Below, piece after piece: positions 1 to 47,820 of a stretch of DNA of 47,820 nt. Numbering within the stretch: position 1 is the first letter of the stretch; every line of letters begins with the position of its first letter. The translations under genes were made by a program, and so were the position numbers. The notes below the pieces were generated by a model, which did no database searches, was not told where the DNA came from, and was given only the letters and a program-made list of their open reading frames with translations. Source of the DNA: a virus; IMG/VR virus record IMGVR_UViG_3300044617_002280, positions 1 to 47,820 of that record, one strand, 5' to 3'.

Positions 1-115
1 CCCCGACCCGTACAGTAACCCCAACGGTAACCCCGACTCCAACTGTAACCCCGAGTATAACACCAACAAGCACAGTAACACCAACCGTAACACCAACAGT
101 AACACCGACCTTACC
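1..115 (+). repeat. Degenerate 12-base repeat coding V-T-P-T
   Basis: Short tandem units of the type ACAGTAACACCA with synonymous and near-synonymous drift encode an extended Pro/Thr linker. It continues past the left edge, so copy number is unknown. Confidence 0.7.
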
Positions 116-296
116 TGAATGGTTAAACTGGATATTATACGATGCTACTTGGAATGATTCTAAAGTTTGGAATGATTTTGCCCCGTGGAGGGACATACCT
201 CTACCGAGTCATCCGTTTTATTCTATTTTATATACAGGTTTTTGGAACGATAGCTTTGGATGGAGAGATGATGTACTGTGGAAAGATGGTCCGTAA
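1..296 (+). CDS. Partial Pro/Thr-rich virion protein with W-D-rich C-terminus (5' end missing)
   Basis: An open frame enters from the left edge (first full codon at base 3) and ends at TAA 294-296; the start lies outside the window. The visible part opens with about 35 residues of alternating V-T-P-T units, a flexible stalk-like linker encoded by a degenerate 12-base repeat. It closes with a roughly 60-residue aromatic segment in which Trp-(x)-Asp recurs (TWND, VWND, FWND, GWRDD, LWKDG). I do not recognise the family. The position before a run of fibre genes and the linker-plus-terminal-domain layout suggest a virion appendage protein. A different ATG-initiated frame at 142-330 overlaps it and is a shadow. 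Confidence 0.8.
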   Translation, partial: PTRTVTPTVTPTPTVTPSITPTSTVTPTVTPTVTPTLPEWLNWILYDATWNDSKVWNDFAPWRDIPLPSHPFYSILYTGFWNDSFGWRDDVLWKDGP

Positions 297-335
297 TTTT
301 GTAGAGAATAACAACATTAGGATTAAATAAAAAAT

Positions 336-812
336 ATGGCAAGACAAACTTTTTCAGTTGGAGATGCAGGCTCTCAGGTGAGAGCGGTTATAGATAGCAA
401 CTTTACAGAGCTTTACGATACCTATTTACCAAAAGCAGGTGGTGATCTAACAGGGCCTTTAGACACTACTATCGCAACACAAAATAGACAGATTGCTTTT
501 ATTACAGGTAACAATCTTACGTTATCGCTTTCTGGGTGTTCTTTTTTTACAGTTACACTTTCAAGTAGCATTAATAGTATTACGCTTAATAATGTTCCAG
601 CGAGCCCAAAGGTTTTTTCGTTTAATCTTCAGTTTATTTATAATAGTGATACATCGTATACAGTTAACTGGACCGGAACAGGAAATTATAGGTGGTCAAG
701 TGGTATAGCGCCTACATTAACTTGTTTGAATAATAAATCTGATCTATTTACGTTTTTAACGTACGATGGTGGAGTAAATTGGTTTGCGTTTGTTTCGGAT
801 CAAAATCAATAA
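336..812 (+). CDS. Short tail-fibre-like virion protein
   Basis: This 158-residue protein begins with a phage-fibre type N-terminus: VGDAGSQVRAVIDSNFTEL at residues 8-26 resembles the 'GDS..IN.NF' docking segment found in other genes of this window. It is followed by LPKAGGDLTGPL at about residues 31-42, the 'KAGG.mtGpl' motif common in tail fibres. The remainder is beta-rich and Ser/Thr/Asn-rich with no recognisable enzyme motif. It sits directly before a tail-assembly-chaperone-like gene, the usual fibre/chaperone pairing. The start at 336 has no Shine-Dalgarno sequence, only an A-rich leader, as for most genes here. Role as a fibre component is likely; the receptor is unknown. Confidence 0.7.
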   Translation: MARQTFSVGDAGSQVRAVIDSNFTELYDTYLPKAGGDLTGPLDTTIATQNRQIAFITGNNLTLSLSGCSFFTVTLSSSINSITLNNVPASPKVFSFNLQFIYNSDTSYTVNWTGTGNYRWSSGIAPTLTCLNNKSDLFTFLTYDGGVNWFAFVSDQNQ

Positions 813-823
813 TAATTAAAAAT

Positions 824-1279
824 ATGAAACTTTACTGTGAAATTGAAGAAAAAAATGGTATTAAAACAATAAAAAGAGGTCCATGCCCTTTACCTCAAAA
901 TACAGAAACTATATCTAACTTTAACGCAATAACAGACGTTAATATTTTAAAACAACACGGGTGGTTGCCTTATAGTAAAATAACAGACAATAAAAAAGTG
1001 ATAGTTAGTAGTAATGTAGTTATTTTGGATGATGTTGTACAGGAGACATTCGTTACAAGAGACGAAACAACAGAAGAGAGTGAAGCTTTAAAATGGATTG
1101 AAATACGAAAACAAAGAGATATACTTTTAAGTGAAACCGATATTTTAGTTCTTGCAGATAGATGGGAAAAATTATCAACTACGCAAAAACAAAAGCTCTC
1201 AACTTACAGACAATCTTTACGTGATTTACCACAAACATATGAATTTTCATATGATGTTGTTTGGCCAATAAATGATTAA
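824..1279 (+). CDS. Tail-fibre assembly chaperone-like protein (Phag_tail_APC type)
   Basis: This 151-residue protein carries the signature of the phage tail assembly chaperone family (Pfam Phag_tail_APC): WIEIRKQRDILLSETD at 91-106, YRQSLRDLP at 128-136 and VVWP near the C-terminus. The N-terminal half has the 'LKQHGWLPY' pattern often seen in fibre-assembly partner proteins. Such proteins help fold or trimerise fibre tips. I chose ATG 824 because the upstream in-frame ATG at 779 would overlap the preceding fibre gene by 34 bases and adds a non-conserved Cys-rich peptide. The gene is 11 bases after the fibre gene and 2 bases before the LamG adhesin, so it could serve either or both. Confidence 0.75.
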   Translation: MKLYCEIEEKNGIKTIKRGPCPLPQNTETISNFNAITDVNILKQHGWLPYSKITDNKKVIVSSNVVILDDVVQETFVTRDETTEESEALKWIEIRKQRDILLSETDILVLADRWEKLSTTQKQKLSTYRQSLRDLPQTYEFSYDVVWPIND

Positions 1280-1281: not shown

Positions 1282-2148
1282 ATGGGTCTTTTTCTAAACA
1301 CACTCTTAGGTTCAGGTAAACGTGTTATCGACCCACTATCTATCGACGGGTGCACGTTATGGTTAGATGCTACAACAAATGTGCTTGACGCAGCTAATAA
1401 CCCTGTTACTCTTAATGGCGCGGCAATTGCAAAATGGAAAGATCGTACAAGCAACGGATACGAATTCACACAAACAACCGCTATTCGTCGGCCTACATAT
1501 TCAAGCAATTCGTTAAACGGTTTACCAGGAATAAGCTTTGATGGTAGTCAAGCCCAAATACTCGACGGAGGCACAACTGTCGGTAATTTAGAAAATAAAT
1601 GTTTATATATAGCGTTAGTGCATAAATTTAATATTGGTTCTCCAACTGGTTTTTTTGAAAATGTAATTTCTAAATCTGGAGGGTACCCTTCAGCTCCATT
1701 TACCCCAGGGGGATGGAGAATTGCACGATGGGATTATCAGGCAGCAGCGTTTACACCTTCAACTTATGCCTATTACCATATGAGGTATGATGCTAATGGT
1801 AATTTTGAATACGGTACCGGTAACCATACAACCACGAGTGCAACATACACACTCTTTTCAATTCCACGCTCAACCGGTCGAACACCGTTTGATGTCCTGT
1901 TAGACATTAATAATACAAGACTCGCTTCAGTTAGCGTTAACGATAACAACACTAATTACAACACAAATCATAGATTAACTATAGGGGGAAGTTACATATG
2001 GACCTCTACCAATCCGTATGTTGTAAATCCTACAACACCGTTTTATGGGGATGTGTATGAAATAATATTTTATCAAAGAAATTCACCTCTTAAAGCAAAA
2101 GAAATTACAGGGCTTTCACAGTATATTAAAAGAAAATGGGGTATCTAA
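1282..2148 (+). CDS. LamG/concanavalin-like adhesin
   Basis: This 288-residue protein has the hallmark opening of LamG-like jelly-roll domains in marine phage adhesins: CTLWLDATTNVLD near residues 24-36, then IAKWKDRTSNGY and LPGISFDGS. It ends with the typical strand EIIFYQRNSPL and a terminal helix ending YIKRKWGI. The whole protein is one such domain with a short N-terminus. Three large - strand genes (24642-27275, 27296-29260, 29546-33052) use the same domain as their N-terminal part. These folds usually bind carbohydrate, so a role in host-surface recognition is inferred. It follows the chaperone-like gene by 2 bases. Confidence 0.75.
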   Translation: MGLFLNTLLGSGKRVIDPLSIDGCTLWLDATTNVLDAANNPVTLNGAAIAKWKDRTSNGYEFTQTTAIRRPTYSSNSLNGLPGISFDGSQAQILDGGTTVGNLENKCLYIALVHKFNIGSPTGFFENVISKSGGYPSAPFTPGGWRIARWDYQAAAFTPSTYAYYHMRYDANGNFEYGTGNHTTTSATYTLFSIPRSTGRTPFDVLLDINNTRLASVSVNDNNTNYNTNHRLTIGGSYIWTSTNPYVVNPTTPFYGDVYEIIFYQRNSPLKAKEITGLSQYIKRKWGI

Positions 2149-3239: not shown

Positions 3240-3270
3240 ACCTATATGTTTAGCATAAGTAAAACAAAAA

Positions 3271-3957
3271 ATGAGTGCATGTAATTTTACCACAGAAATT
3301 AACGGAACAGATTGTATTGGAGATTCAAGAGGTCTTATTAATCAAAATTTTTTAAATTTAGATACTGCTATTTGTGAGCTGTCTGCTTCTACATTTTTAA
3401 GAGATGCAATAGGTGGTCTCGAAGAAACAGACTTCAATCAAGTACGGCTCAATTCTTCTTTGCGTACATGTTATAACTTTTACCCAGCTAAGTTTAATAA
3501 TTCTACAAACCCGTATGAAAATAGAGTATTAGGTACATATAGCAGTACACATAATTTACCAGCTTCGTTTACGTCTCCAACACAGAATGTTCTTTTAGAA
3601 CCTCTTAATAACGAGTACCCTAATTTAGATATACCGTTAATTGATGCAGCATTAATTAAATTCCGTGTACATGGTACTCTTTTTAGACCTGATGGTAGCC
3701 TGGGTATACGTACAAGAAGAAAAAACACTGAGCCATGGTATACAGTTTTAGAAACTTTTGCAGCGGGCCCGGAAAATATTTTTAACGTAGGAGAGTCAAC
3801 AACTGAAATAATTTATTTCGATAAAACCACAAATCGTTTTGAATGGGAGTTATTTGATACAGGGGTAACCCCATTCCCGGTTTCAGGCGGAATCACGCAA
3901 AACGCAGAATATAATGTAACAATAGAGTTACTCGGGTATTATTTCAGAGTTGAATAA
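3271..3957 (+). CDS. Fibre protein with 'GDSR..IN.NF' docking module
   Basis: This 228-residue protein opens with a Cys-containing segment, DCIGDSRGLINQNFLNLDTA at about residues 14-33. The same motif heads the three beta-propeller genes at 42962-47108 and the tail-collar gene at the right edge, so it is probably a shared virion-attachment module. The rest is a beta-rich domain (FRVHGTLF, LGIRTRRKN, YNVTIELLGYYFRVE) that may be a receptor-binding or decoration domain. The next gene starts 3 bases after its stop. Specific function unknown. Confidence 0.65.
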   Translation: MSACNFTTEINGTDCIGDSRGLINQNFLNLDTAICELSASTFLRDAIGGLEETDFNQVRLNSSLRTCYNFYPAKFNNSTNPYENRVLGTYSSTHNLPASFTSPTQNVLLEPLNNEYPNLDIPLIDAALIKFRVHGTLFRPDGSLGIRTRRKNTEPWYTVLETFAAGPENIFNVGESTTEIIYFDKTTNRFEWELFDTGVTPFPVSGGITQNAEYNVTIELLGYYFRVE

Positions 3958-3960: not shown

Positions 3961-5871
3961 ATGCCATCTGGAATTGTAACTAAACCAGACGTAACATCTC
4001 AACCGCCAAATTTTGGAGTTGGGGATACCTATTCATGGATTAAAGTTAACGGTCTTGAAGACTATAGACAAATGTTTGCAAGAGCGGTTTATGTAACTAA
4101 TTTAAGTGAATTATCTTTATCGTTAAGTGCTTCTGATGTTAATATTGGGGGTGTTGAAATTGTAGATCATGATTCTGGGTTAAGATGCGATGTTACATCT
4201 TTTAGTTATGAAGATGGCTCGTATAACGCGTTAAGAGTAGTTACTCAAGATTTAGATCCATCATTTGATGGAGTTCATCTCGGGGACACAGAAGGAAATG
4301 TTGTCGGTGTTAACCCGGATACATCATCCCTTCTTACAGAAATTACAAACTTTAACACGCTTTCATCCTTATTAAAATTTGATAATATCATAACACTTTT
4401 AAACGTGTTAACCGCTAACGACCCCACTCTTGATCTTAATACAGATGCTATTGAAGATCAGCTTAATACGGTAAATAGTTTATTAAACGCATTAACAGCT
4501 AGAGAGTATGAAATTAATATTAACGCAGACCATATTAATATTAATACAGATGAAATTGAAGGTCAGTTTGATACCGCAAATAGTTTATTAAACACACTAA
4601 CAAGTTATAATGTTTATGGTACAACTAATACTCTACCACTACATATAACAGGTAATTTAGTAAATCAGCAATTTTCGTACACTGATAATTCAGGTTTAGA
4701 TGCTTTCGGGCGCTTGAGAGTTTCTGAACCATACACACTTTTAGATGCGAAGCATTTATACGATAAATTGCCGTTTATTTTTGATGAAAAAGTAAACGGA
4801 ACAGCAACATCTTCTTTCTCATCAAATGATTCGATGGTTGTGATGTCGACAACTAACCCAGGAGACTATGTAATTAGACAAACTAAAAGTCGTTTTAACT
4901 ATCAACCCGGTAAAAGTCTTCAAGCTTTTTTTACAGGTTTTTTTAAACCTGAAGACGGGGTAATAAAACGGGTCGGTTTATTTTATGGAGCTTCAGCCGC
5001 TCCATATGACCCAGTTGATGGTATATATCTTGAAGTAATAAAAGATGGACCGCGTTTTTGTATCGTAAAAGAACAAGGATACAAAAACACTATAACGATA
5101 CCACAATCTGCATGGAATGTAGATAGACTAGATGGTACAGGTCCTTCAAAAGTTAATGTTTCTCTTTCTGCTGCGCAAATATTTGTTATTGACTATGAAT
5201 GGCTTGGTTTAGGAAGAGTAAGATTAGGTTTTGCTCAAGCTGGAAAGATTCATTACGCGCATTATTTTAACCACGTTAATGAGCTTGATCGACCATATAT
5301 CACATCACCGAATCAACCTGTGCGTTATGAAATAAGGCAAACTAAAAATCAACCAGGAAATTTACACCATATATGCTCTACAGTTATGGTAGAAGGCGGA
5401 GAAGAAAATATCGGTAAACCTATTTCCCTCATGGGTGAGAGTGTTACAAATATTAACACTGCAAATTATAAAGCTTTAATTGCGGTTCGTTTAAAAGATA
5501 TTGCATATAATTCATCAGTTACATTAAAATCCGTAGATGTTTTAAATTACGGGCAAAATCAAGGATATTATTCTGTTTTATTGAATCCTACCATTATTTC
5601 AGGTACTTTGACATGGGCCGATGTACCAGGCACAGCAATACAATATTCAACGAGTAACGTTGTTGTAAGTGAGGGTTATTCTCTTTTTAAATCACTAATA
5701 CCGGCAGGGTTAGGAGGAGCATCTATATCTCAAAATATTGCGGTGTTAAGTGAGCTTACTCGTTTAGGGGTAAATATTAATTGGTCAAAAGATTTTGTTG
5801 TAATTGCAGGTAGGTCATTGAATCAACTTACAGACATGATAGCAACCATGCATTTATTAGAACGTTCGTAG
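3961..5871 (+). CDS. Large virion protein with 'AFGRLRVSEPYTL' module
   Basis: This 636-residue protein has three parts. Residues 15-50 hold a TYSWI...FARAVYVTN segment that recurs in the next two fibre genes. Residues about 140-205 are two diverged copies of a Leu/Asn-rich heptad-like repeat (NTDAIEDQLNTVNSLLNALT and NTDEIEGQFDTANSLLNTLT), likely trimeric coiled coil. Residues about 245-495 form a module beginning AFGRLRVSEPYTL, with RQTKSRFNYQPGKS and DYEWLGLGRVRLGF, which I know from structural proteins of marine phages and some giant viruses; its molecular role is not established to my knowledge. A C-terminal domain of about 140 residues follows. Fibre or baseplate decoration is inferred. 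Confidence 0.65.
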   Translation: MPSGIVTKPDVTSQPPNFGVGDTYSWIKVNGLEDYRQMFARAVYVTNLSELSLSLSASDVNIGGVEIVDHDSGLRCDVTSFSYEDGSYNALRVVTQDLDPSFDGVHLGDTEGNVVGVNPDTSSLLTEITNFNTLSSLLKFDNIITLLNVLTANDPTLDLNTDAIEDQLNTVNSLLNALTAREYEININADHININTDEIEGQFDTANSLLNTLTSYNVYGTTNTLPLHITGNLVNQQFSYTDNSGLDAFGRLRVSEPYTLLDAKHLYDKLPFIFDEKVNGTATSSFSSNDSMVVMSTTNPGDYVIRQTKSRFNYQPGKSLQAFFTGFFKPEDGVIKRVGLFYGASAAPYDPVDGIYLEVIKDGPRFCIVKEQGYKNTITIPQSAWNVDRLDGTGPSKVNVSLSAAQIFVIDYEWLGLGRVRLGFAQAGKIHYAHYFNHVNELDRPYITSPNQPVRYEIRQTKNQPGNLHHICSTVMVEGGEENIGKPISLMGESVTNINTANYKALIAVRLKDIAYNSSVTLKSVDVLNYGQNQGYYSVLLNPTIISGTLTWADVPGTAIQYSTSNVVVSEGYSLFKSLIPAGLGGASISQNIAVLSELTRLGVNINWSKDFVVIAGRSLNQLTDMIATMHLLERS

Positions 5872-6149: not shown

Positions 6150-6545
6150 ATGGCTACTTTTAACCCGCAAATATCTTCAACTCCAGGTGTAAGACCAACC
6201 TATAACCCAGCACTCGCTGAAACGTTTTCGTGGATACCAATACATAATGATAGCGATAGACCGCTTTTCGCTAAAGCGGTCTATTCTGTTAATAGAAATA
6301 ATCAGCTCGGTCAAGATGGGTTTGATTTTATTGGGGCTGGTAAAACATCGATACAAAATTATAACGCAATCCAAACTATTGTTACAACATTAATAAGAGA
6401 TATAACAGCTACTAACAGTTTTTTAGGAGATGGGTTAACATCAACATCTCATTTAACCGCAACCCCTATACCGGCTAATTTTATTTTACACGGCCCTATA
6501 AAAGGAGTTTCTATTGCAACTGGAGCAGTTATAGGTTACAAATAA
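6150..6545 (+). CDS. Short fibre-type protein with 'FSW..KAVY.VN' module
   Basis: This 131-residue protein begins with FSWIPIHNDSDRPLFAKAVY at residues 26-45 followed by SVN, matching the N-terminal segments of the genes at 3961 and 6545. The rest (about 80 residues) is small and beta-prone, ending in FILHGPIKGVSIATGAVIGY. It could be a minimal version of the same docking protein, perhaps an adaptor for the long repeat fibre that follows. Its stop overlaps the next start by one base (TAATG), indicating translational coupling. A perfect 12-bp inverted repeat lies within the conserved motif-coding stretch (6256-6284). Confidence 0.65.
   Translation: MATFNPQISSTPGVRPTYNPALAETFSWIPIHNDSDRPLFAKAVYSVNRNNQLGQDGFDFIGAGKTSIQNYNAIQTIVTTLIRDITATNSFLGDGLTSTSHLTATPIPANFILHGPIKGVSIATGAVIGYK
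6256..6284 (+). repeat. Perfect 12-bp inverted repeat inside a coding region
   Basis: ATAGACCGCTTT (6256-6267) and AAAGCGGTCTAT (6273-6284) enclose the 5-base loop TCGCT. No T-tract follows, so it is not a classical terminator. Confidence 0.75.
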
Positions 6546-9496
6546 TGGCGTCATTTTACCCAAAATTTTTATCTCGCACACAGTTAAATTTTAATGGTGA
6601 AATAGCAAATACGTTTAGCTGGGTACCAAACTCTGTCAGCACGCACCCAGAATACTCTCAAACTGTATTACACGTAAATACTGGGTACCCGGAAGGTTTT
6701 GTCTATGTACCGAGAGGTTTTATCGCTATTGGAGATTTTCGCTCCTTACGAGTTGTAACACCAAATACTTTTCTTGTTAACCTTTTTTCTAAAAGTATAC
6801 CTAGCATCGATAGTCTTGACAACGTACCACTCCCTTTTGGTTTATATTTACAAGGCGAAATTAACAACGCAACGGTGTTTGTAGGAGGTATTATTTTAGA
6901 ACCTTTAAATGCTTTCTACTCCGTAATAAGGGACCCCTCTATACCTATAGATTTTGAAGCAGATATCTTAGAGCTTGGTTCAGCTGATACAAACACCGAT
7001 TTTAGTGGTAGTGATACAACCTACACTAAGTTAAGTGCAAGTAAAGAAATACCGACTCATTTTCTTCATGACTCTACAGCTACAGTGATACCATCAGGTA
7101 TCACTGCTTTTTTTGAAGATACATCTTGGATTAACACTATTATAAAACAAATTAACCAGAGTACGGTTAACATTATATTAACTGGTTATAGTTCCGATTA
7201 CAATACTTTAGAAATAACAAACAAAGAAATAAAAATAACAGATGTAGTTAATTATAACTCACTTCTTTCTGGAGCAGTTGGTTGGGCAGAAATTATAGAA
7301 GGTGTAGACTATAACCACATAACGCTTGCTACACAAACAATTATATTAACAGCTACTAATGCTGACTATTCTAATTTTTTATCTTCAAACAAACAAATAA
7401 AACAAATACTCTTTTCAACAGTCTTTACAACCCCAACAGGTTTTAGTTCTGATTTTGTAGATTTAGAAATAGTTAATAAAGTAATTAGAGACCCTAGTTT
7501 TTTTACAGTAATTTCTAAACTTACAGGTTTTAGTTCTGATTTTGTAGATTTAGAAATAGATAATAAAGTAATTAGAGATCCTAATTTTTTTACAGTCTTT
7601 ACAACACCAACAGGTATACAAGCTCAGTTTGAAACTTTAAGTACAATTGATAAAAGAGTTATTAGTCCTAATTTTTCAACAGTCTTTACAACCCCAACAG
7701 GTTTTAGTTCTGATTTTGTAGATTTAGAAATAGTTAATAAAGTAATTAGAGACCCTAGTTTTTCTACAGTCTTTACAACACCGACAGGGTTTAGTTCTGA
7801 TTTTGTAGATTTAGAAATAGTTAATAAAGTAATTAGAGACCCTAGTTTTTTTACAGTAATTTCTAAACTTACAGGTACACAGACATGGTTTGAGTCTCTT
7901 AGTACGTTAGATAGTAGATTACCAGAACCCAACACTTCTTTAGTGACAGCTATTCTTACAGGGCTTAATTATGATTTCTTAGATTCAGAAGTAGTTAACA
8001 AGATTGTTAAAAATATTAATTTTTCTACGGAGACAGCTACTTTTACGGGCACTCAAACATGGTTTGAATCTCTTAGTACGCTAGATAGTAGATTACCAGA
8101 ACCCAACACTTCTTTAGTGACATCTATTCTTACGGGCACTCAAACATGGTTTGAATCTCTTAGTACGCTAGATAGTAGATTACCAGAACCCAACACTTCT
8201 TTAGTGACAGCTACTATTACGGGCACTCAAACATGGTTTGAGTCTCTTAGCACGTTAGATAGTAGTTTACCAGAACCCAACACTTCTTTAGTGACAGCTA
8301 TTCTTACAGGTACAAACACCTGGTTTGAGACACTTAGCACATTAAAAGATCTTTACTATCATGAAGAAACATATAATTTACCGTATTTATATTTTCAAGC
8401 TTCAGGAACAAATACTTGGTTTGAAACACTTAGTACTTTAAAAGATTTATACTCTCATAAAGACGTCCTTTTTTTACCTACTTATTTTTATGAAGCCTCT
8501 GGTACAAACACCTGGTTTGAGACACTTAGCACATTAAAAGATCTTTTCTCCCACTATGAGTACTACATACTACCAACCATTAACTATGAAGTTACAGGTA
8601 CAAACACCTGGTTTGAGACACTTAGCACATTAAAAGATCTTTTCTCTCATCAAGAGTATTATATCTTACCTAGTATTAATTTCGAAGCCTCTGGTACAAA
8701 CACCTGGTTTGAGACACTTAGCACATTAAAAGATCTTTTCTCTCATCAAGAGTATTATATCTTACCTAGTATTAATTTCGAAGCCTCTGGTACAAACACC
8801 TGGTTTGAGACACTTAGCACATTAAAAGATCTTTTCTCTCATCAAGAGTACTACATACTACCAACCATTAACTATGAAGTTACAGGGTCGCATATTCGTT
8901 TTGAAACACTTAGCGGGTTAGATAATCTTTTCTCTCATCAAGAGTACTACATACTACCAACCATTAACTATGAAGTTACAGGGTCGCATACAACAATAGA
9001 ACTGTTAACAAGTTTAGGCATGCTCTTTCAGGCTTCCGAATTTTGTAATAATACTACCCAGCTTTCAGGTATTAACACGGTTTCAACACAAATAACTGCA
9101 TCACCCACCACCACAAAATATTTCTTTGAAAATAATAATACATCATCTATCAAGCTAACCGGTGTAAGTACAATTTTAACACGATTAAGTGCATCTTCAT
9201 CGAATAATAGATATTATTTTGAAGGAAAAACAGTGCTCGAACAAATAACAGGTGTAAGTACAATATCAACAAGACTTTCTGCAAACCCGTTAACAATAAA
9301 GTCTTTTGGAGAAAATAAAACCATTTATAATATCCTAACAGGTAGAAACGGAGACTATACGTTGCTTTACGAAAAAAATATAACACCGTTTATAGAAAAA
9401 ACAACTACTTTACAAACAACCACTCTTGGTGGCTCTTGTTTAGATATTTCTCAAGTTTTTTTAATTGGAAAAGTAGTTGTACCTTCAAGTCTTTAA
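6545..9496 (+). CDS. Long repeat fibre protein (87/96-bp tandem array)
   Basis: This 983-residue protein starts with FSWVP (24-28) and TVLHVN (40-45), the docking module shared with 3961 and 6150. From about residue 210 to the end it consists of about 29- to 32-residue repeats beginning with Thr-Gly. In order these are TGFSSDFVDLEI..., TGTQTWFESLSTLDSRL..., TGTNTWFETLSTLKDLF... and finally TGVSTISTRLSA... types. The repeat core is W-F-E-(S/T)-L-S-T-L. Several neighbouring units are identical or nearly so in DNA, implying recent duplication. Such a regular array suggests a long rod or superhelical fibre. Translation start overlaps the preceding stop by one base. An intrinsic-terminator-like hairpin sits inside the gene at 7083-7114. 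Confidence 0.7.
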   Translation: MASFYPKFLSRTQLNFNGEIANTFSWVPNSVSTHPEYSQTVLHVNTGYPEGFVYVPRGFIAIGDFRSLRVVTPNTFLVNLFSKSIPSIDSLDNVPLPFGLYLQGEINNATVFVGGIILEPLNAFYSVIRDPSIPIDFEADILELGSADTNTDFSGSDTTYTKLSASKEIPTHFLHDSTATVIPSGITAFFEDTSWINTIIKQINQSTVNIILTGYSSDYNTLEITNKEIKITDVVNYNSLLSGAVGWAEIIEGVDYNHITLATQTIILTATNADYSNFLSSNKQIKQILFSTVFTTPTGFSSDFVDLEIVNKVIRDPSFFTVISKLTGFSSDFVDLEIDNKVIRDPNFFTVFTTPTGIQAQFETLSTIDKRVISPNFSTVFTTPTGFSSDFVDLEIVNKVIRDPSFSTVFTTPTGFSSDFVDLEIVNKVIRDPSFFTVISKLTGTQTWFESLSTLDSRLPEPNTSLVTAILTGLNYDFLDSEVVNKIVKNINFSTETATFTGTQTWFESLSTLDSRLPEPNTSLVTSILTGTQTWFESLSTLDSRLPEPNTSLVTATITGTQTWFESLSTLDSSLPEPNTSLVTAILTGTNTWFETLSTLKDLYYHEETYNLPYLYFQASGTNTWFETLSTLKDLYSHKDVLFLPTYFYEASGTNTWFETLSTLKDLFSHYEYYILPTINYEVTGTNTWFETLSTLKDLFSHQEYYILPSINFEASGTNTWFETLSTLKDLFSHQEYYILPSINFEASGTNTWFETLSTLKDLFSHQEYYILPTINYEVTGSHIRFETLSGLDNLFSHQEYYILPTINYEVTGSHTTIELLTSLGMLFQASEFCNNTTQLSGINTVSTQITASPTTTKYFFENNNTSSIKLTGVSTILTRLSASSSNNRYYFEGKTVLEQITGVSTISTRLSANPLTIKSFGENKTIYNILTGRNGDYTLLYEKNITPFIEKTTTLQTTTLGGSCLDISQVFLIGKVVVPSSL
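7083..7114 (+). terminator. Intragenic intrinsic-terminator-like hairpin
   Basis: CAGTGATACC (7083-7092), loop ATCA, GGTATCACTG (7097-7106), then C and seven T. This has all elements of a factor-independent terminator on the coding strand, but it lies about 540 bases into the 983-codon gene. Confidence 0.5.
7439..9067 (+). repeat. Tandem array: ten 87-bp units then 96-bp units
   Basis: Units start at 7439, 7526, 7613, 7700, 7787, 7874, 7961, 8048, 8135 and 8222 (87-bp spacing), then at 8309, 8405, 8501, 8597, 8693, 8789, 8885 and 8981 (96-bp spacing; the last is 87 bp). Two successive 96-bp stretches around 8645-8836 appear identical. All are in frame within the fibre gene. Confidence 0.9.

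Positions 9497-35296: not shown

Positions 35297-35304
<8 letters not shown>
34411..35304 (+). CDS. GT9 (heptosyltransferase-like) glycosyltransferase
   Basis: This 297-residue protein follows the glycosyltransferase family 9 pattern: RPGALGDIIMTFNFL at residues 8-22, WWGWQELVNLL with IYQIGGPDDPQ in the middle, HIGLDSVFNH as the nucleotide-sugar binding segment, and VILFGSTQADAFGYPHN. It ends with a Cys-rich tail (PCQPC and two further Cys) as in some environmental members. Substrate is unknown: host envelope glycan, phage virion protein or DNA are all possible. The stop overlaps the next gene by 8 bases, so both products probably act in one pathway. A strong imperfect hairpin with GGTACC cores is at 34628-34664. 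Confidence 0.75.
34628..34664 (+). repeat. Inverted repeat with a one-base bulge inside the GT9 gene
   Basis: TTATAGGGTACCCTT (34628-34642) pairs with AAGGGTACCCCTATAA (34649-34664) with a single bulged C in the 3' arm and loop TACATG. Confidence 0.7.
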
Positions 35305-38787
<3,483 letters not shown>

Positions 38788-38846: not shown

Positions 38847-39791
38847 TTAGAAAGTACCGCAGTCAATTATAAAATTTTCAATTACAGAAGAGTCTTTTGT
38901 ACCAGAAAGATTATTGGTTATTGTTAAACTACCAGCTCCATCTGTATATATAGTGTTATTATCGAGTGTTGTAGTTCCTGTTACAGAAAGATTATTACCG
39001 AGTGTAACAGCTTGATCAACGTTAAGTGTGGAATCTATATCAACAGCACCGACAACATTTAAGTTACTACTTAAATTTGTTACAGATGTTACGGTTAAGG
39101 AAGAGCCAAGTGTTGTAGCACCTGTAATGTTCGCTGTACCCCCTATTGTTAAATCTCCAGTACCGGTGTAGTTACCAATGGCGGAAATATTACCAGAAAC
39201 GGTTAATCTCTCGTTAGGAGTTGCGGTATTAATACCAATGTACCCAGGAGCCTCTACACTACCTTTAATGATTAAAGCAGATACCCCATCATCTTTAAAT
39301 TCAGCAATATCCGTTGTACCTTCTTGATTAACGACTAATGCGGTTTCAGAACCGGCATTAGTTATGTTAAAAGATCTAGTCTGGTATGTAGTTGTTTCTA
39401 AAGTTGTTGTATCACCTAAAACAGTAAGATTACCAGTAACGGTAACGTTACCACTTGCATCAATGTTTGTAAAAGTACCTTCACGAGAAGAATTTATTAC
39501 GTTAGTACCGTTGATAGAAAAACTATTTGCATCAACATTGCCATCAACTTCAACATCTCCGAGCGCGCTTACTGTGTTAGTGAATGTCTTGATACCGCCA
39601 ACTGTTTGATCTGTGACACGGTCAACAAATAAACCAGGACCAGCAATACCAATTGTATTACCTTCACCTCCACCATTAGCACCGTAGTAAAGTACTTTAT
39701 CTACTTCGTTAAATGCTATTTCACCACCAGAGAGCGCTGGACCACCGGGTAGTCCGACTAAACGACGTTTAATTTGAATAATGTTGTTCAT
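38847..39791 (-). CDS. Tail fibre with MTD-like N-terminus
   Basis: This 314-residue protein starts IQIKRRLVGLPGGPALSGGE with IAFNEVDKVLYYG, the N-terminal virion-attachment pattern seen in major-tropism-determinant and other fibres. The shaft is made of short beta repeats (GNVTVTGNLTVLGDTTT; YIGINTATPNERLTVSGNIS) like those of the fibre at 21124. It ends FIIDCGTF, one of four successive genes with a similar C-terminal tag. No C-type-lectin variable domain is present, so there is no sign of a diversity-generating retroelement. An intrinsic terminator follows. Confidence 0.75.
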   Translation of the reverse strand: MNNIIQIKRRLVGLPGGPALSGGEIAFNEVDKVLYYGANGGGEGNTIGIAGPGLFVDRVTDQTVGGIKTFTNTVSALGDVEVDGNVDANSFSINGTNVINSSREGTFTNIDASGNVTVTGNLTVLGDTTTLETTTYQTRSFNITNAGSETALVVNQEGTTDIAEFKDDGVSALIIKGSVEAPGYIGINTATPNERLTVSGNISAIGNYTGTGDLTIGGTANITGATTLGSSLTVTSVTNLSSNLNVVGAVDIDSTLNVDQAVTLGNNLSVTGTTTLDNNTIYTDGAGSLTITNNLSGTKDSSVIENFIIDCGTF

Positions 39792-40549: not shown

Positions 40550-41530
40550 TTAGAATGTTGAACCGTCTAAGTTAAATAAATCAAACTGTCCTGCAGCTGC
40601 AGTATATGTAAGCTTACCAGTCGTACCGCTACCTGTTATTGTAAATGTTGTTAACCCGTTATTTTGGGTAACTGGTTTACTAATTACAGTCCCTGCAATT
40701 TCTTTATTATATTCTTCTACGGAGTTAATAAATTGATTCATCTCGTTATTAAAGATACCTCCTAATAATGTAGACGATGTGTCAGCGGTAAACGTTGAGG
40801 CGTTTTGGGCGTTTGCTAACTTATCTGTAAGCGGTATAAAATGACCTGCTGTATATTGTGGAGCAGCTTCCCCGCCACTATCATAGTAATCGTATATACA
40901 CTGTGCGCTATTGTCTGCACTATCTGGATACGGTTGAGTAAGTTCTTCTGGGTTTTCTCCGCCTGAGAGTCTACCATAATCCCCACCGTCATTGATTTGT
41001 ATATTAACAGGTTCACTGTGCATACCAGGCTCGTACGAGTATTCCCATCTTTTGCATTTTATATACCATACATAATGCCCCATTAAAGAATTTGTAAGTT
41101 CAAGATTTTGATCATCTCTTTCAGTAATTTCATATATTGGTGCCCCTCTAAACCCAGGTCTATCCCCGAAACCACCATACTCATGCATTTCAATTAAGTC
41201 CCCAGCTTTAGGCTCTCTACCTGCCCCGAAGAGTTCTGAAAATGCAGAAATATGTACTACAGCGGTCATATCACAATCAGCCATTATACCGAACTTAGAA
41301 AGCATAATGGAATCATTAGTTATACTAGTAAACATTATTATTTCACCGGTAGCTTCAAACGCTGAAGTAGGATCTTCCCCGTAAATAAAATTATGACTTG
41401 TAAGCGTGTAACCGTTTGTGTAATACCTTACTTTAGTACCATAGTGATTAATCTGTTCACGCCACCACCCGCTGTAATTATTACGCTCATTGCTATTGAT
41501 GTCCTTATTAAGGTAGCGCACCGTATTCAT
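40550..41530 (-). CDS. Neck protein, gp14-like
   Basis: This 326-residue protein matches the layout of the T4-type neck protein gp14: WWREQINHYGTKVRYYTNGY at the N-terminus, then FIYGEDPTSAFEATGEI, MLSKFGIMADCDMTAVVHIS, a PKAGDLIEM loop and IYEITERDDQNLELT. In T4 the gp13/gp14 complex closes filled heads and joins them to tails. Residues after about 190 (including INDGGDYGRLSGG and a helical stretch) extend beyond the part I can align with T4 gp14, ending FDLFNLDGSTF. Neighbours are an unrecognised gene upstream and small proteins downstream. Confidence 0.75.
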   Translation of the reverse strand: MNTVRYLNKDINSNERNNYSGWWREQINHYGTKVRYYTNGYTLTSHNFIYGEDPTSAFEATGEIIMFTSITNDSIMLSKFGIMADCDMTAVVHISAFSELFGAGREPKAGDLIEMHEYGGFGDRPGFRGAPIYEITERDDQNLELTNSLMGHYVWYIKCKRWEYSYEPGMHSEPVNIQINDGGDYGRLSGGENPEELTQPYPDSADNSAQCIYDYYDSGGEAAPQYTAGHFIPLTDKLANAQNASTFTADTSSTLLGGIFNNEMNQFINSVEEYNKEIAGTVISKPVTQNNGLTTFTITGSGTTGKLTYTAAAGQFDLFNLDGSTF

Positions 41531-42961: not shown

Positions 42962-44362
42962 TTATAGTGTTTCTTTAAAAAACACACCTGTAACTGTCGC
43001 TCTCATAAACCCTTGTTGATTGCCCGTGTTAATAATAACAGCTTTATCCTCCACGCACGGAGCAACAAAAATATCTCCGTTTTCAAGAACAGTAGCACCG
43101 ATGTATTTTTGTAATGCTGAGCCTACAGGCGGAGAAAACAAAACTGTATCGTCTTTAAAATTGTAAAAGGCGAATTTACCAGCGCCATACGGCACCATAC
43201 ACACTCGCCCGTCTGGTAATAGTATACTTGTAATATAATTCCATGCACCGGCAACAAAGCTATTCACGCCTACTGGTGTAAACGTATCAGTATCTGGATC
43301 ATATACCATAGCACTAGATGAATTATACGGTGTTAAAAATATTTTACCATTTGGTAATAAAACCGCACTACTAAAAGCTCCTAGTTGAGAGTTATTTAAA
43401 ACTCCAGAACCAACAAACTCTACAACATGTGGCTCGTTTACAGAAATTCTTACCATTTGTGTTGCGTCGTGCGGGGTTAAATAAACATACTTTCCGTCTA
43501 AAGACAGTGTACCACTAAAAAAACTTTTATTACCGGTTGTTGTGAAAACAGAACTTTTAATTTCTTTTATAGTATCGGTACTTGGATCGTAAATTATTGT
43601 TCCGTCTTGACGACCAAACGGGGTAAGTAAAATTCTACCATCAGGTAAAAGAGTTCCACCGTTATATGGATTAGATACCCCTGGAATAGATAAATCTATT
43701 TTAGAGATGAAAAGAGTGTTTGTTTGCGGGGACCATATGTAAATATTTTTTGGTGTACCGGGTATTAAACATACTTTACCGTCTGGTAGTAGTATTGCGT
43801 TTGCAAAGCCAATAGGTATAGGTACGTTTATTTTTGTAAAAAGCCCGTTATATGGGTTATATATCGACCCGGTACCGAGCGCTCCTGGAAATAGTAATAA
43901 ACGACCGTCCCCGATTGTTAATACTCCGAGATACTGCATCACGGGGTTTATATTATTTGTATTAATAAATGTATATGATTCTGTTCCACAAAGCACCGGA
44001 GTTAAAGTCATTAGTTGATTAAAATAATCTAGTAAAAGAGCTGATTTTGTAACTTGCTGGGAAAATTTATTTTCTTTTTCTTCTGCATATAAAGAAGAAT
44101 TTGTTGCACCAACGTGCCACGGCGGGCTATAAGACTGCGACACAGTTACAATACCGGTTTCTGGTTCTGTTACGACACCGTTTTTACCGGTTATACGGGT
44201 AATTGACCCGGTGCCGGTTTGATTTAATTGTTGTGCAACCCCGTAAACCCCGCATGCTATATCTGCTAAAATATTAAAGTTATCATTTATCGTTTTTAAA
44301 GAGTCTCCGATAACTTCATCTTCAGATATTATTTTTATATTAGCAACACAATTTTTTTTCAT
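42962..44362 (-). CDS. Beta-propeller fibre protein A (seven blades)
   Basis: This 466-residue protein has an N-terminal docking module (VIGDSLKTINDNFNILADIA at about 17-36), a short linker, and seven repeats of the form 'G..LLPDGRV.L.P.....IYDP.TDT', for example NGGTLLPDGRILLTPFGRQD and SSAVLLPNGKIFLTPYNSSS. Seven kelch-like units predict a complete seven-bladed beta-propeller. No enzyme active site is apparent. It would place a propeller at the virion surface as a receptor or glycan binder. Start overlaps the upstream paralogue stop by 4 bases, implying coupled, stoichiometric expression. Confidence 0.75.
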   Translation of the reverse strand: MKKNCVANIKIISEDEVIGDSLKTINDNFNILADIACGVYGVAQQLNQTGTGSITRITGKNGVVTEPETGIVTVSQSYSPPWHVGATNSSLYAEEKENKFSQQVTKSALLLDYFNQLMTLTPVLCGTESYTFINTNNINPVMQYLGVLTIGDGRLLLFPGALGTGSIYNPYNGLFTKINVPIPIGFANAILLPDGKVCLIPGTPKNIYIWSPQTNTLFISKIDLSIPGVSNPYNGGTLLPDGRILLTPFGRQDGTIIYDPSTDTIKEIKSSVFTTTGNKSFFSGTLSLDGKYVYLTPHDATQMVRISVNEPHVVEFVGSGVLNNSQLGAFSSAVLLPNGKIFLTPYNSSSAMVYDPDTDTFTPVGVNSFVAGAWNYITSILLPDGRVCMVPYGAGKFAFYNFKDDTVLFSPPVGSALQKYIGATVLENGDIFVAPCVEDKAVIINTGNQQGFMRATVTGVFFKETL

Positions 44363-45759
44363 ATATATAACCCGGTTAGATAGTTTAAGGAAAAACTATT
44401 TTGATGGTAATACTGCAAATAAGCGGCGTATCTGCTATCTTTTGGAGCAAAAAATACATCCCCGTTACCAAGAACAATGCCTTTAGCGTGAGAAGTACCA
44501 GGTCCTAATTTTATACCTGTGTCGTGAAGTGTGTCGGTTCTCGGATCGTAGATTTTAATGGTGTGGTTGTTTTTCGGTGTAATTAAAACTCTTCCATCAA
44601 CAAGAAGACAGCCACCTATACTTGAATCTCCAAGTGGGTATTCTCCACTTGTAGGAGTAAACACACGAGTTACCGGGTCAAATATACACGCATCCGGTCT
44701 ATTCGTCGGTACTAAAAACACTCTACCATCAGACAACATAACACCACCAGAGAACCACCCTTCACCTGTTACAACTGTAGATTGTATAAACGTTAAAGGC
44801 ATTATTGGAGATTCTGGATGCGAAAAATCAACATTTAAATCAAATAAAGCAGGTACCTTATTTCTATACGGTATCAGCAATATTTTATTATCGGGGAGAA
44901 GCACCCCGTCAATATAACCTTCATCTCCAGGATACGAACCTTGGGAATTTCTTATCGTGCGCAAATAAGGGTTATAAACTATATCTTTTGTACTATTGTA
45001 CGGTATGTGTAAAATTTCACCACTCGGGGTTAATATACCTTTTGAAAATCCTCCGGGTAAATTGTAAATATTTGTATCCGGTATTACAGTTAATGTATCT
45101 TGCCCAGGATCATATATTCTAGAATATATTGTATTAAAAGGTGTAAGATACACTCTACCGTTAGGAAGATAAACCGTGCTTGAGTGCGCACTATGTACCT
45201 CTGGGTAACTTTTATCTTTTGATTCAAATATAGTGTTTGTAAACGGATCATAAATTTTTGCAGTATCTAAATAATTTGCTGCAAGGTACACTCTACCGTC
45301 CATTAATAATCTGCTACCTACATATTTATCTTGCTCTATTCCGTAATCATACTCTAAAAAAGTTACAGTTTCACTACCAGGCATTGGGTAGTTTTGTGCT
45401 ACAATACTTTGTAGATGCTGTAGCACTAAATCAGATCTTAAATATTGCATAGAAACTCTATTAGAAGGAGTTTCCTCGTATAATGGTTTATTAGTTTTCC
45501 CGACAAACCAATACGGGCAGACAGCTGTTGAAATTGTTACATCTCCGGTACCTGAATTGTCATTTGTATAAACCGTAATACCTGTTCCAGCTATAATTTT
45601 ACCAACGCTTGCACCTGTCTTTCCTGTAACAATACTTGATACTTGATAAAGGGTTGTATCTATATTTTCAAAATTTTTATTTAACGTAGTTCGAGAATCT
45701 GATAAGCATTCAGTATCATTAATTCTTGAAACATTATTTGATGGACAAGGAGCACTCAT
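44359..45759 (-). CDS. Beta-propeller fibre protein B (seven blades)
   Basis: This 466-residue paralogue has docking segment ECLSDSRTTLNKNFENIDTT at about 16-35. A small beta region (TGKTGASVGKIIAGTGITVY) follows, then seven blades (SSTVYLPNGRVYLTPFNTIY; SGGVMLSDGRVFLVPTNRPD; GGCLLVDGRVLITPKNNHTI and others). It has the same length as protein A but is clearly diverged, so duplication is old or diversification is fast. The stop overlaps the next start by four bases and its own start overlaps the upstream stop by one base. Confidence 0.75.
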   Translation of the reverse strand: MSAPCPSNNVSRINDTECLSDSRTTLNKNFENIDTTLYQVSSIVTGKTGASVGKIIAGTGITVYTNDNSGTGDVTISTAVCPYWFVGKTNKPLYEETPSNRVSMQYLRSDLVLQHLQSIVAQNYPMPGSETVTFLEYDYGIEQDKYVGSRLLMDGRVYLAANYLDTAKIYDPFTNTIFESKDKSYPEVHSAHSSTVYLPNGRVYLTPFNTIYSRIYDPGQDTLTVIPDTNIYNLPGGFSKGILTPSGEILHIPYNSTKDIVYNPYLRTIRNSQGSYPGDEGYIDGVLLPDNKILLIPYRNKVPALFDLNVDFSHPESPIMPLTFIQSTVVTGEGWFSGGVMLSDGRVFLVPTNRPDACIFDPVTRVFTPTSGEYPLGDSSIGGCLLVDGRVLITPKNNHTIKIYDPRTDTLHDTGIKLGPGTSHAKGIVLGNGDVFFAPKDSRYAAYLQYYHQNSFSLNYLTGLYI

Positions 45760-47108
45760 TATAGTTTATTTAAAAACGGGCTATTTAATACAGAGTAGTG
45801 AAAGCTTTCGGTACAAGGTATTGAGAGAACAACCCCGGTGTTTGAATTACTCGGGAACAAAAATACCCGGTTATTATCTAAAAGGGTGCAACCATAATAG
45901 CTTTTATTAAAAGAGTCAATATTCGGGGTTTCAAATTCTTCAGTCACTGTATCAAAAATAACGGCATTTTTACCGTTAGCTGCAACAAGAAGTATTCTTC
46001 CGTCTGGTAAAAGTGTTCCACCTTCATACATCGCTGTACCTATAAAAACATTACCTGTATATCTTACAGCATCCGTGACAGGGTTATAGATCGCTGCTTT
46101 TAAAGAATTGTATGGAATACAAAATATTTCCCCCGTACGTAACAACACTCCACCTCGAAAAGCCCCAAGAACAGGATCAGTTAATGTATTCGCTGTATAT
46201 ACCGTGTTGTTTCGTAACACCCAAAATTTATCTGTATTATACGGTATAAATAACACTTTACCGTTTGGCGCTAAACAACACCCATAAACAGATTGAGGGG
46301 TTGTAGTTGGCATTGCAAAATTAGAAGCTGTATTTGTTCTAGGGTTATAAACACCGTAGCTTGTCATATTATGTGGGCATAATAAAACCCTACCATCTGG
46401 TAAAAGTGTACCCCCAATAAATGCTCCGCTAACTATATTCGGCCACGGTACAAATGTGACTCTATTAGCTCCAACTTCATTTATATTGTAAATTGCAGCA
46501 CTTGTATTATTAAACGGTACAGCGAAAACTTTACCGTTTGATAAAAGAACACCTCCCCAAAAAGCTGAAAGCGTAACACCAAACCCTCCAACTGTTTGAG
46601 AAAAACTTTTTCTATAATCAAATAAATATGAATCAGCTGAATTAAATCGAGGTATAAACACTTTACCGTCTAACATTCTTACCCCGCCTCTAAATGCGTT
46701 TACTGTTGATGTATTATTTATACCAGAAACAAACCCTACAACAGTAGACATATTTTTAAGTGGGACGTTGTAACCGGTTACATCCTGTATGTGTTTTAAG
46801 AAATCCGCAGACAATGTATTTGCTAATGAAACACTGTTATTATTTTCACTCAATAAAGGCACCTTTCTTTGGTTTATATACCATTTCGGACAATCTTCTC
46901 TAGTAGCAGTAACTTCTTGATTTAATGTTTTTATGGAAATACCTGGACCACCAATAACTGAATTTACACCAAACTCTGTGACTTCACCTAATGTAGCACA
47001 TAGGGTGCACGCTATAGTTTGTAATTTATCAAAATTAAAATTTATAGAAGAAAGAGATTCCCCTATATATTCTCTACTACCAATGGTTGTAGTGTAGCGG
47101 TTTGCCAT
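45759..47108 (-). CDS. Beta-propeller fibre protein C (seven blades)
   Basis: This 449-residue paralogue has docking segment YIGESLSSINFNFDKLQTIA at about 14-33, then 'GPGISIKTLNQEV', then seven blades (WGGVLLSNGKVFAVPFNNTS; IGGTLLPDGRVLLCPHNMTS; EGGTLLPDGRILLVAANGKN). Several loops contain Cys not found in A and B. Three adjacent propellers with different loops look like parallel receptor-binding options or a hetero-oligomer. It starts 5 bases after the tail-collar gene stop. Confidence 0.75.
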   Translation of the reverse strand: MANRYTTTIGSREYIGESLSSINFNFDKLQTIACTLCATLGEVTEFGVNSVIGGPGISIKTLNQEVTATREDCPKWYINQRKVPLLSENNNSVSLANTLSADFLKHIQDVTGYNVPLKNMSTVVGFVSGINNTSTVNAFRGGVRMLDGKVFIPRFNSADSYLFDYRKSFSQTVGGFGVTLSAFWGGVLLSNGKVFAVPFNNTSAAIYNINEVGANRVTFVPWPNIVSGAFIGGTLLPDGRVLLCPHNMTSYGVYNPRTNTASNFAMPTTTPQSVYGCCLAPNGKVLFIPYNTDKFWVLRNNTVYTANTLTDPVLGAFRGGVLLRTGEIFCIPYNSLKAAIYNPVTDAVRYTGNVFIGTAMYEGGTLLPDGRILLVAANGKNAVIFDTVTEEFETPNIDSFNKSYYGCTLLDNNRVFLFPSNSNTGVVLSIPCTESFHYSVLNSPFLNKL

Positions 47109-47113
47109 GACAC

Positions 47114-47820
47114 TTATGTAAGAGGAACACGCATTATATAACCAAGAGCAATATATGGCGGACGGTTTTCATGTTTAGTACTACCACCCTCATTATCTAT
47201 TATAATACCTGTTGTTGAATAGTCAGTATGAAAAACTTTTTCCCAATGTCCAGATCTTGCAAGATCTCTAGGCTCTGGTAACGGGCCAGCTCCAAGTGTT
47301 GCGTTATTATCTATTAATTTAGTTACAAACCCGTCACCTTGAGCGGGTGTACCAGGAGCGTGTCTATGACCTCTTTGCCCGCCTGCTGCAGTTGGCTCAG
47401 TTATTGTGTGTTTATGTGTTGGCATTTCACTAACAGATAAACGTACCGAACTAAATTCTAATGAAAGTGTATCGTTTGTATACGAAACATTATCACCTGG
47501 ACCGAATGTTCTTTGTTCGTAGTTTCTACCAGCACCCACGACAAAGCGATCTTGCATATTTGGAGTACCGTTCCTACCGTCGCAAATAGCAAATGCCTGT
47601 AAATTTTTTTCAGGTTTTCCTCTACCCGATGAGAGAAAATCTGTACCCCCTGGAGTTATATCTCCATAGTACATTATTATACCGTATAAAGGCACATCGA
47701 ATATTGTTTTACTTTCAGTTGTTTTTTGTTCTATGTCTAAAGAGCAAATCTTGTCTTTTACTACAGAGAAATTTTCATTTATAGTTTCCCTTGAATTCCC
47801 AATACAATCCGATTTATTAA
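47114..47820 (-). CDS. Partial tail-collar fibre protein with docking module (5' end beyond window)
   Basis: The frame is open to the right edge. The outermost visible residues read NKSDCIGNSRETINENFSVV, the same docking module as in the propeller genes, followed by a linker and a tail-collar domain. That domain shows FAICDGRNGTPNMQDRFVVG, SEMPTHKHTI, GHRHAPG and HENRPPYIALGYIMRV. The GTG at 47693-47695 that begins the shorter reading is internal, not the start. Collar-domain fibres form short tail fibres or distal tips; the His-rich pattern (HKH, HRH) often coordinates metal. Confidence 0.8.
   Translation of the reverse strand, partial: NKSDCIGNSRETINENFSVVKDKICSLDIEQKTTESKTIFDVPLYGIIMYYGDITPGGTDFLSSGRGKPEKNLQAFAICDGRNGTPNMQDRFVVGAGRNYEQRTFGPGDNVSYTNDTLSLEFSSVRLSVSEMPTHKHTITEPTAAGGQRGHRHAPGTPAQGDGFVTKLIDNNATLGAGPLPEPRDLARSGHWEKVFHTDYSTTGIIIDNEGGSTKHENRPPYIALGYIMRVPLT

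Follow-up and report, generated by a model that had tools for sequence, protein, structure and literature searches.

A 39-residue N-terminal dock in front of exchangeable candidate adhesins in a T4-like phage lineage

The virus record IMGVR_UViG_3300044617_002280 is a fragment of an uncultured T4-like phage, and we analyzed the entire record of 47,820 bases (the window). Five of the 43 window proteins, g06 on the plus strand and g40 to g43 on the minus strand, begin with the same N-terminal dock of 39 residues, here called D1, which stands ahead of three unrelated distal types. D1 recurs in related phage records at the N-termini of proteins whose distal parts are diverse, and its genes occupy two recurrent slots. 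We consider it fairly probable that these genes encode a modular set of attachment proteins for a T4-like tail, in which D1 would dock in the baseplate wedge and carry exchangeable distal modules. A sequence-only reading of this DNA had proposed at least fourteen receptor-binding or decoration genes; our own count is 17 candidates, with direct family or fold evidence for fewer (Table 1).

A shared N-terminal dock

Within the window, BLAST joins the first 40 residues of g06 and g40 to g43. Pairs of these docks give z-scores of 4.2 to 15.0; the distal parts of g06, g43 and the propeller proteins are mutually no more alike than shuffled sequence (z from -1.1 to 1.6). The propeller proteins g40 to g42 are paralogous over their full length (distal z of 39-54). 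With a D1 profile derived from 88 docks that lie outside the window, g06, g40, g42, g41 and g43 come out at the top of the 43 window proteins (E-values of 8e-21 to 1.4e-10, the next window protein at 0.19), in a test that is not fully independent, as the 88 docks had been collected with a profile seeded by the five window docks and two from record G002.

The related records were reached through two proteins. The gp14-like neck protein g37, which served as a synteny anchor, led to 62 related loci with 41-73% identity, and a search with the hub protein led to G002, a syntenic record of 39.5 kb. At the DNA level, megablast of window positions 1-25000 against 50,697 phage records retrieved no near match. 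Tblastn of g12, g13 and g28 against phages likewise returned no match, and g41 matched two Cylindrospermopsis phages weakly. The iterated D1 profile identifies 109 D1 proteins among 1725 open reading frames (ORFs) from 63 records, the window and near-duplicates included, and in 107 of the 109 the dock begins within the first 30 residues. Tblastn of the D1 consensus against the 50,697 phage records gave no match at E<=10, a search in which a 40-residue query is weak and which does not show that D1 is absent from known phages.

Could the similarity be convergent low complexity, an Asn/Ser/Ile-rich helix, rather than homology? The motif is short, and reversed proteins yield four matches at E<=0.01 with the first profile and six with the iterated one, as such convergence would allow. 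When these reversed matches were relisted per stretch (four and five, respectively), every one proved to be a reversed D1 dock. The first profile matched 0 of 8625 shuffled proteins at E<=0.01, and the N-terminal placement is nearly invariant. A loose motif occurs within the first 60 residues of 85 of the 109 D1 proteins compared with 5 of 1616 other ORFs, a count that is illustrative only, the motif having been picked after the match to T4 was seen. We regard convergence as very improbable and conclude that the D1 N-termini are homologous. Lack of homology between the shared N-termini, which the sequence-only reading had named as the outcome that would overturn it, is rejected for D1.

In ten related records, of 39 to 217 kb, the number of D1 proteins ranges from 2 to 8, and several of these records have further docks as well. 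Because relatives are so equipped, a large repertoire is normal for the lineage. The window is thus not special in this respect, contrary to the proposal that its set is far above that of a typical T4-like phage; an adsorption complex of ten proteins has also been reported for phage RaK2 (PMC10253068). One further locus, L173 (1-10412), has a tandem array of seven D1 genes in 10.4 kb; propellers are encoded by three of the seven.

Exchange of distal parts and recurrent gene slots

To describe the distal parts, we removed locus copies of records that were included whole, reduced the 109 D1 proteins to 93 at 80% identity and left out nine with fewer than 40 distal residues. The remaining 84 non-redundant distal parts fall into 28 single-linkage BLAST classes, a figure that overstates the number of folds. 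The classes include Kelch-like and RCC1 (PF13540) propellers, a collar, a pectate-lyase-like spike (PF12708) and tail-fibre families. Ten proteins from ten classes were scanned. They yielded an RCC1-type propeller, a pectate-lyase-like spike, a HINT/intein-like insert and one very weak propeller match; six had no Pfam match at E<=0.1, and three of the ten matched tail-fibre or tail-spike PHROGs. The HINT/intein-like insert lies in a D1 protein of L020 (18841-20250; PF07591, E 3e-5, under its cut-off). Among pairs of docks at least 60% identical, 99 have differing distal classes and 23 the same class.

The D1 genes occupy two recurrent slots, one upstream of the neck block g39-g38-g37 and the other upstream of the hub-type genes g11-g12. 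One to four D1 genes lie within 9 kb upstream of the neck gene in 34 of the 63 neck-gene records. Of the other 29, 11 end within 1,709 bases upstream of that gene and 18 form a distant group whose neck proteins are 41-50% identical. The second slot holds D1 genes in seven of the eight records with the hub genes.

The neck-proximal position (slot 1) shows 14 outcomes in 25 dereplicated records, 13 distal classes and the lack of any distal domain, the latter in seven records. Dereplication at 98% neck identity dropped nine of the 34 records, and three of those nine differed in slot 1 from their representative. Six records with necks 73-95% identical (L019, L020, L070, L042, L034 and G007) have two neighbouring D1 genes of one class and six different classes in slot 1. 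The most recent change seen separates L020 and G002 from L014: their necks are 98.6% identical to that of L014, and slot 1 encodes a protein of 88-94 residues in the former two and one of 283 residues, of a different class, in the latter.

These data also bear on the suggestion that many of the proteins lack a receptor and serve as structural decoration or spacers, their diversity due to drift and hitch-hiking mobile domains. It is consistent with the six class representatives lacking a Pfam match and with the seven of 25 slot-1 proteins that are too short for a distal domain. The named classes (collar, pectate-lyase-like spike, tail-fibre families) are, however, typical of receptor-binding tips, and genes for tail-fibre assembly chaperones adjoin D1 genes: homologues of g03 do so in G004, G005 and G009. 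We consider pure decoration unlikely. Record G004 holds five chaperone copies (111724-112077, 114300-114650, 115500-115829, 142752-143138 and 170987-171373), three of them next to D1 genes.

The propeller allowed the exchange to be viewed from its other end. The seven-bladed propeller named by the sequence-only reading is confirmed in g41 by a structural model (mean predicted local distance difference test score, pLDDT, of 70, high over most of the propeller and low over the dock). It has seven strand groups, counted by eye, with four-stranded blades arranged in a closed ring, and its top PDB matches by Foldseek are streptogramin/virginiamycin B lyases (2qc5, E 5.6e-15). A scan of viral contigs with three propeller sequences confirmed nothing; an alignment of ten sequences retrieved 75 loci with 96 propeller ORFs (the best 80 of 110 confirmed stretches). 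For the reverse test we used the 80 propeller ORFs that had a start codon inside the locus and lay in records not met before. Their N-termini form 35 clusters, and only three of the proteins carry D1. L173 is the single record among these that lists D1 propellers, with two of the three and one further. Thus, proteins with the propeller fold have many different N-termini, and the D1 N-terminus is joined to many different distal folds. The exchange behind a constant N-terminus that had been proposed for checking across related genomes is borne out for D1, and exchange in the reverse direction occurs as well.

Propeller genes of the D1 lineage form sets of three (window 42962-47108, G003, G004, G009 and L173), as they do in four more loci without D1. 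The window and G003 sets are one-to-one orthologues; the G004 genes group in a separate, fully supported clade. Threefold sets may have arisen repeatedly, or gene conversion may have homogenised them. At a guess, three different propeller subunits per trimer would explain the number.

Two other explanations were set aside. An assembly artefact was discarded in view of synteny with several records. A diversity-generating retroelement was also discarded, no reverse transcriptase having been found in the 30 of 43 window proteins scanned with Pfam.

A putative wedge dock in a T4-like tail

In records G004, G007 and G009 the gene order runs from a gp6-like wedge protein through large structural proteins, g05 and two more large proteins to the D1 genes, g39, g38 and the neck gene; in G005 the gp6 block lies on the opposite side. 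T4 gp6 matches the gp6-like proteins of G004 (E 1.8e-6), G009 (2.5e-5) and G007 (0.001), with the best match in G014 (1e-11). The T4 map has the order 6, 7, 8, 9, 10, 11, 12 and wac, and genes 13 and 14 come after wac. Based on this gene order and the gp6 matches, the window belongs to a T4-like lineage, and its D1 genes, between gp6-like wedge genes and the neck, occupy the place of the T4 wedge, pin and short-fibre genes, from gene 9 to wac. The window also encodes a PhoH protein (g16), and its hub-type protein g12 has a Phage_base_V match slightly under the cut-off. The tail collar named by the sequence-only reading is found at the tip of g43 (PHROG 1800, E 4e-15; PHROG 8469, E 9e-16), a tip also present in T4 gp12. 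A G014 protein (3015-3710) of the same distal class matches T4 gp12 341-524 (E 5e-9), and g43 lies upstream of the neck genes, as gp12 does in the T4 map.

The dock itself resembles the N-termini of T4 gp9 and gp10. When residues 1-180 of T4 gp10 were searched, the matches in the six cyanophage records listed were confined to the N-terminus, from residue 2 to residues 38-88. We aligned D1 with the first 40 residues of a profile made from 11 gp9/gp10 N-termini, which came from T4, Aeromonas phage CC2, a Vibrio phage and five cyanophages and included seven of the 30 gp10 matches listed. The two share a short GD-x-L ... IN-x-NF motif near residues 15-40, and the alignment covers both halves of it in 20 columns. 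The hhalign score is 22.1, against 15.9 for the best of 300 column shuffles of the D1 alignment (0 of 300 as good) and 8.9 for the reversed D1 alignment, with a local E-value of 4e-5 for one pairwise comparison. The N-terminal domain of T4 gp9 binds gp7, a baseplate wedge protein (PMC3004832). We infer that D1 is a shortened gp9/gp10-type plug. Its docking in the wedge is likewise proposed because D1 resembles the gp9/gp10 N-terminus and the gp9 N-terminus binds the T4 wedge.

Under this reading, D1 would be a docking peptide, probably related to residues 1-40 of gp9/gp10 but shorter, by which a trimer is held in a wedge position of the baseplate. Exchangeable modules at the distal end, among them the collar tip, propellers and spikes, would probably bind or process the cell surface, and the phage would be re-fitted by recombination at the junction of constant dock and variable distal part. 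A second dock (D2), LamG modules and the docks of g23, g31 and g35 may supply further adhesins. Trimer formation, wedge docking, receptor binding and joint display on the virion are predicted from the genes.

A competing possibility is that the D1 proteins dock at the neck rather than at the baseplate, as collar fibres similar to the fibritin whiskers. The main D1 slot is directly upstream of the neck block, and T4 wac is at the corresponding place. On the other hand, the second slot lies upstream of hub-type genes in seven of the eight records with g11 or g12, the dock resembles gp9/gp10 N-termini, and the part of T4 wac that was compared (290 residues) scored as chance. We consider neck docking rather unlikely, although less so than pure decoration.

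Several results weigh against wedge-docked, freely exchanged modules, in addition to the inflated class count. The match between D1 and gp9/gp10 covers only 20 columns with a probability of about 70%, and falls to 1.2% in global mode. Among 601 reference ORFs the D1 profile finds S-RIM2 gp9 only at E 0.041. Against solved structures it finds nothing credible, and the g41 model is poor over the dock. PF07880, the gp9/gp10 N-terminal domain of 175 positions, gave no match at E<=10 in the window, in nine related records or in cyanophage S-RIM32, and two matches in T4. Because the full domain is absent, the D1 proteins are not gp9 or gp10 in the strict sense. None of the 18 loci that make up the distant neck group has D1; G006, a record containing one of them, has two weak matches at other positions. 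With respect to exchange, the nearest dock in another record shares the distal class in 31% of cases; when labels are shuffled, the mean is 9% and the maximum 23%. Docks have therefore been inherited with their distal parts in some cases and exchanged in others. Finally, the closest relative by neck identity, G003 (73%), has a four-gene D1 cassette in the same order, with proteins 41-48% identical. Because the two are collinear, the cassette of the window was inherited rather than recently swapped. The interpretation first proposed from the sequence is partly supported.

More speculatively, the lineage may have made the gp9/gp10 wedge dock a universal plug of 39 residues, such that adhesin trimers compete for or share wedge sites and virions from a single genome have mosaic tips, with the neck-proximal slot as an exchange cassette in which only the distal part changes and dock and flanks are kept, and a collagen-like fibre glycosylated by a phage enzyme. 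We offer this wider scheme tentatively and think it doubtful as a whole.

Further modules, known systems and significance

The 17 fibre, adhesin and decoration candidates are g02, g04, g06-g09, g23, g28-g31, g34, g35 and g40-g43. Tail-fibre or collar PHROG matches were found only for g02, g43, g23 and g34, and the propeller model supports g41; the remaining candidates are included by shared modules or repeat layout, and their putative functions are mostly assigned on that basis. The N-terminus of g02, which has a weak gp9/gp10-like motif, had no tblastn match in the 50,697 phage records, where a short query is weak.

Table 1 Features of the window discussed in the text
Gene	Position	Strand	Feature	Evidence
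g02	336..812	+	Small fibre, weak gp9/gp10-like N-terminal motif	PHROG 9017 E 9e-12; gp9/gp10 N-terminal profile E 0.056
g03	779..1279	+	Tail-fibre assembly chaperone	PF16778 E 1.2e-13
g04	1282..2148	+	Laminin_G_3-like (concanavalin A-like) domain alone	Named via relative G004 213111-213926
g06	3271..3957	+	D1 dock 3271-3387; distal part of ~190 residues, singleton class	D1 profile E 8e-21
g07	3961..5871	+	D2 dock 3961-4146; virion structural domain	PHROG 1645 E 7e-77
g08	6150..6545	+	D2 dock; short tail	Window BLAST, dock z-scores
g09	6545..9496	+	D2 dock; tandem Trp-containing repeats	87- and 96-base repeats within 7412-8975
g23	21124..22542	+	Tail-fibre repeats behind dock of ~75 residues	PHROGs 9942, 5342
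g28	24642..27275	-	LamG-like domain ~26403-27245; repetitive part, perhaps beta-helical	Shared module, window profile
g29	27296..29260	-	LamG-like domain ~28418-29260; repetitive part	Shared module, window profile
g30	29546..33052	-	LamG-like domain with large insert; repetitive part	Shared module, window profile
g31	33066..34307	-	Other N-terminal dock type, repeats 33330-33589, shared C-terminal module	Dock also in G004 97830-98723
g33	35297..36994	+	Glycosyltransferase, GT2 ~35903-36304	PF00535 E 1.3e-13
g34	36991..38766	-	Collagen-like fibre, Gly-X-Thr-rich	PF01391 E 2.8e-36; tail PHROGs
g35	38847..39791	-	Dock; repeats shared with g23	Dock also in G004 136800-139451 (883 residues), L034 10082-11248 (388 residues)
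g37	40550..41530	-	gp14-like neck protein, synteny anchor	PHROG 679 head closure E 6e-12
g40	42962..44362	-	D1 dock ~44240-44362; Kelch-like propeller	D1 E 4.6e-14; full-length paralogue of g41/g42
g41	44359..45759	-	D1 dock ~45634-45759; seven-bladed propeller ~44413-45369	D1 E 3.2e-13
g42	45759..47108	-	D1 dock ~46995-47108; propeller	D1 E 3e-13; paralogue
g43	47114..47818	-	5' end cut by window; D1 dock ~47735-47818; tail-collar tip, T4 gp12 short-fibre-like	D1 E 1.4e-10

D2 is a dock of ~60 residues shared by g07-g09 and also present in G002, G004, G008, G009 and G014. Its similarity is clear between g07 and g08 (z 10.5) and between g08 and g09 (z 10.0) and only 2.1 between g07 and g09; the distal parts retain slight similarity (z of 0.7, 3.0 and 3.8). 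Small D2 proteins like g08 occur in G009 and G004, and G008 has one of 125 residues. Cyanophage relatives of g07 are ~31-34% identical among the matches listed. The repeat array proposed as Trp-rich is present in g09, as Trp-containing repeats.

The LamG-like module makes up all of g04, the front of g28-g30 and stand-alone ORFs in G004. The window proteins themselves give no LamG match in Pfam, and the profile made from them finds nothing credible among solved structures. It does find a G004 ORF (213111-213926, E 1.6e-19) that passes Laminin_G_3 (E 1.6e-8), so the LamG assignment holds only through this relative. Because the module is the whole of g04 and of stand-alone ORFs, "dock" is a poor name for it; it is probably a lectin-type domain and not evidently a dock. 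Re-use of docks, as first proposed, holds for D1 and, with its slightly similar distal parts, for D2. Use on both strands holds for D1 and the LamG module and fails for D2, which is on the plus strand only. Two further domain assignments found no backing: the G8 domain has no Pfam match and the g29 model has a pLDDT of 31, and the CBM-like part of g30 matches GLEYA only at E 0.45. A 1139-residue protein of G009 (33148-36567) combines a KISSL-type N-terminus with a GLEYA lectin-like domain (E 2e-7).

The docks of g23, g31 and g35 recur in relatives before proteins of other sizes; that of g23 is common to proteins of 106 to 1328 residues. The C-terminal module of g31 is shared with G003 (42900-43847) and G004 (129967-130815). 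At the window start, the truncated g01 (3-296) has a Pro/Thr repeat linker and then a Trp-rich segment and is perhaps the end of another fibre.

The genes for the glycosyltransferase g33 and the collagen-like fibre g34 overlap by four bases, tail to tail. The collagen repeats of g34 are well supported, and nothing was found for the C1q-like end once attributed to it. The nearest solved structures to the GT2 part of g33 are GmaR and SunS, and it has a sub-cut-off match to the model of the SunS peptide S-glycosyltransferase. GmaR modifies flagellin. Homologues of g33 occur in two metagenome-assembled genomes (MAGs) of Chlamydiae, in phage Tunturi_5 and in huge phages. Collagen repeats are present in six of seven records with the enzyme and in none of 13 without it (exact test by hand, ~2e-4, though 11 of the 13 negatives are one group of related phage records and two positives are whole MAGs). 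In four of these six (the window, G015, W03 and W07), enzyme and collagen share a short contig or are at most 7 kb apart. Against a link, W06 has the enzyme and no collagen, the two are far apart or on different contigs in W05 and G016, and a collagen signal also appears in three of 14 control genomes. The C. difficile glycosyltransferase SgtA, which bears TPR repeats and is encoded beside the collagen-like BclA3 gene, adds O-GlcNAc to repeat Thr residues (PMC7157674). The GT-A type domain and the neighbouring collagen-like gene are alike in the two cases. The likeness of g33 is by description only: its TPR repeats are weakly detected (TPR_14, E 0.0038, under its cut-off), and it carries an additional N-terminal region that is weakly similar to methyltransferases. 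By this analogy, glycosylation of the g34 shaft by g33 is possible, somewhat short of an even chance. A Chlamydiaceae MAG contig (L129, 3422-6329) has a SunS/GmaR-like glycosyltransferase adjoining a Gly-X-Thr collagen-like gene, as at window 35297-38766. For g32 (34411-35304), the gene directly before the glycosyltransferase, searches of Pfam, NCBIfam and solved structures gave no credible match.

Docks that stay constant while the tips vary are already known, as is the shuffling of domains among receptor-binding proteins (PMC8825819, PMC10684548, PMC10253068). Compared with T4 gp9/gp10, the D1 motif is about four residues shorter, occurs in several copies and stands ahead of many unrelated distal modules. 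The branched tailspikes of Ackermannviridae (CBA120 TSP1-4) also have gp9/gp10-related N-termini (XD domains), variable distal spikes and several spikes per virion. As described there, anchor and XD domains take up 335 residues of TSP4 and there are four spikes (PMC8825819), whereas here the dock has 39 residues and no PF07880 was found (XD folds were not searched by structure). The Alcyoneusvirus Klebsiella phage RaK2 likewise has a very large set, and its ten proteins were located in the adsorption complex by experiment (PMC10253068). Among phage proteins generally, unrelated proteins share fragments, and such mosaicism is pronounced in those that bind receptors (PMC10684548). The case described here differs in having one defined dock, defined slots and one uncultured lineage. 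Among the titles and abstract openings listed by a literature search, none dealt with the D1 dock or the lineage, neither of which could be searched by name. The mix-and-match principle is known, and the dock tag and its scale appear to be new.

In a large group of uncultured phages, many of whose distal domains have no family name, a very short docking sequence points to likely receptor-binding genes, and host-recognition genes may be found by their N-terminus. The D1 proteins would also be a natural record of the distal folds that can be exchanged on one dock. If the link between D1 and gp9/gp10 is true, it would tie a wide adhesin repertoire to a known position in the T4 wedge and make mosaic display directly testable.

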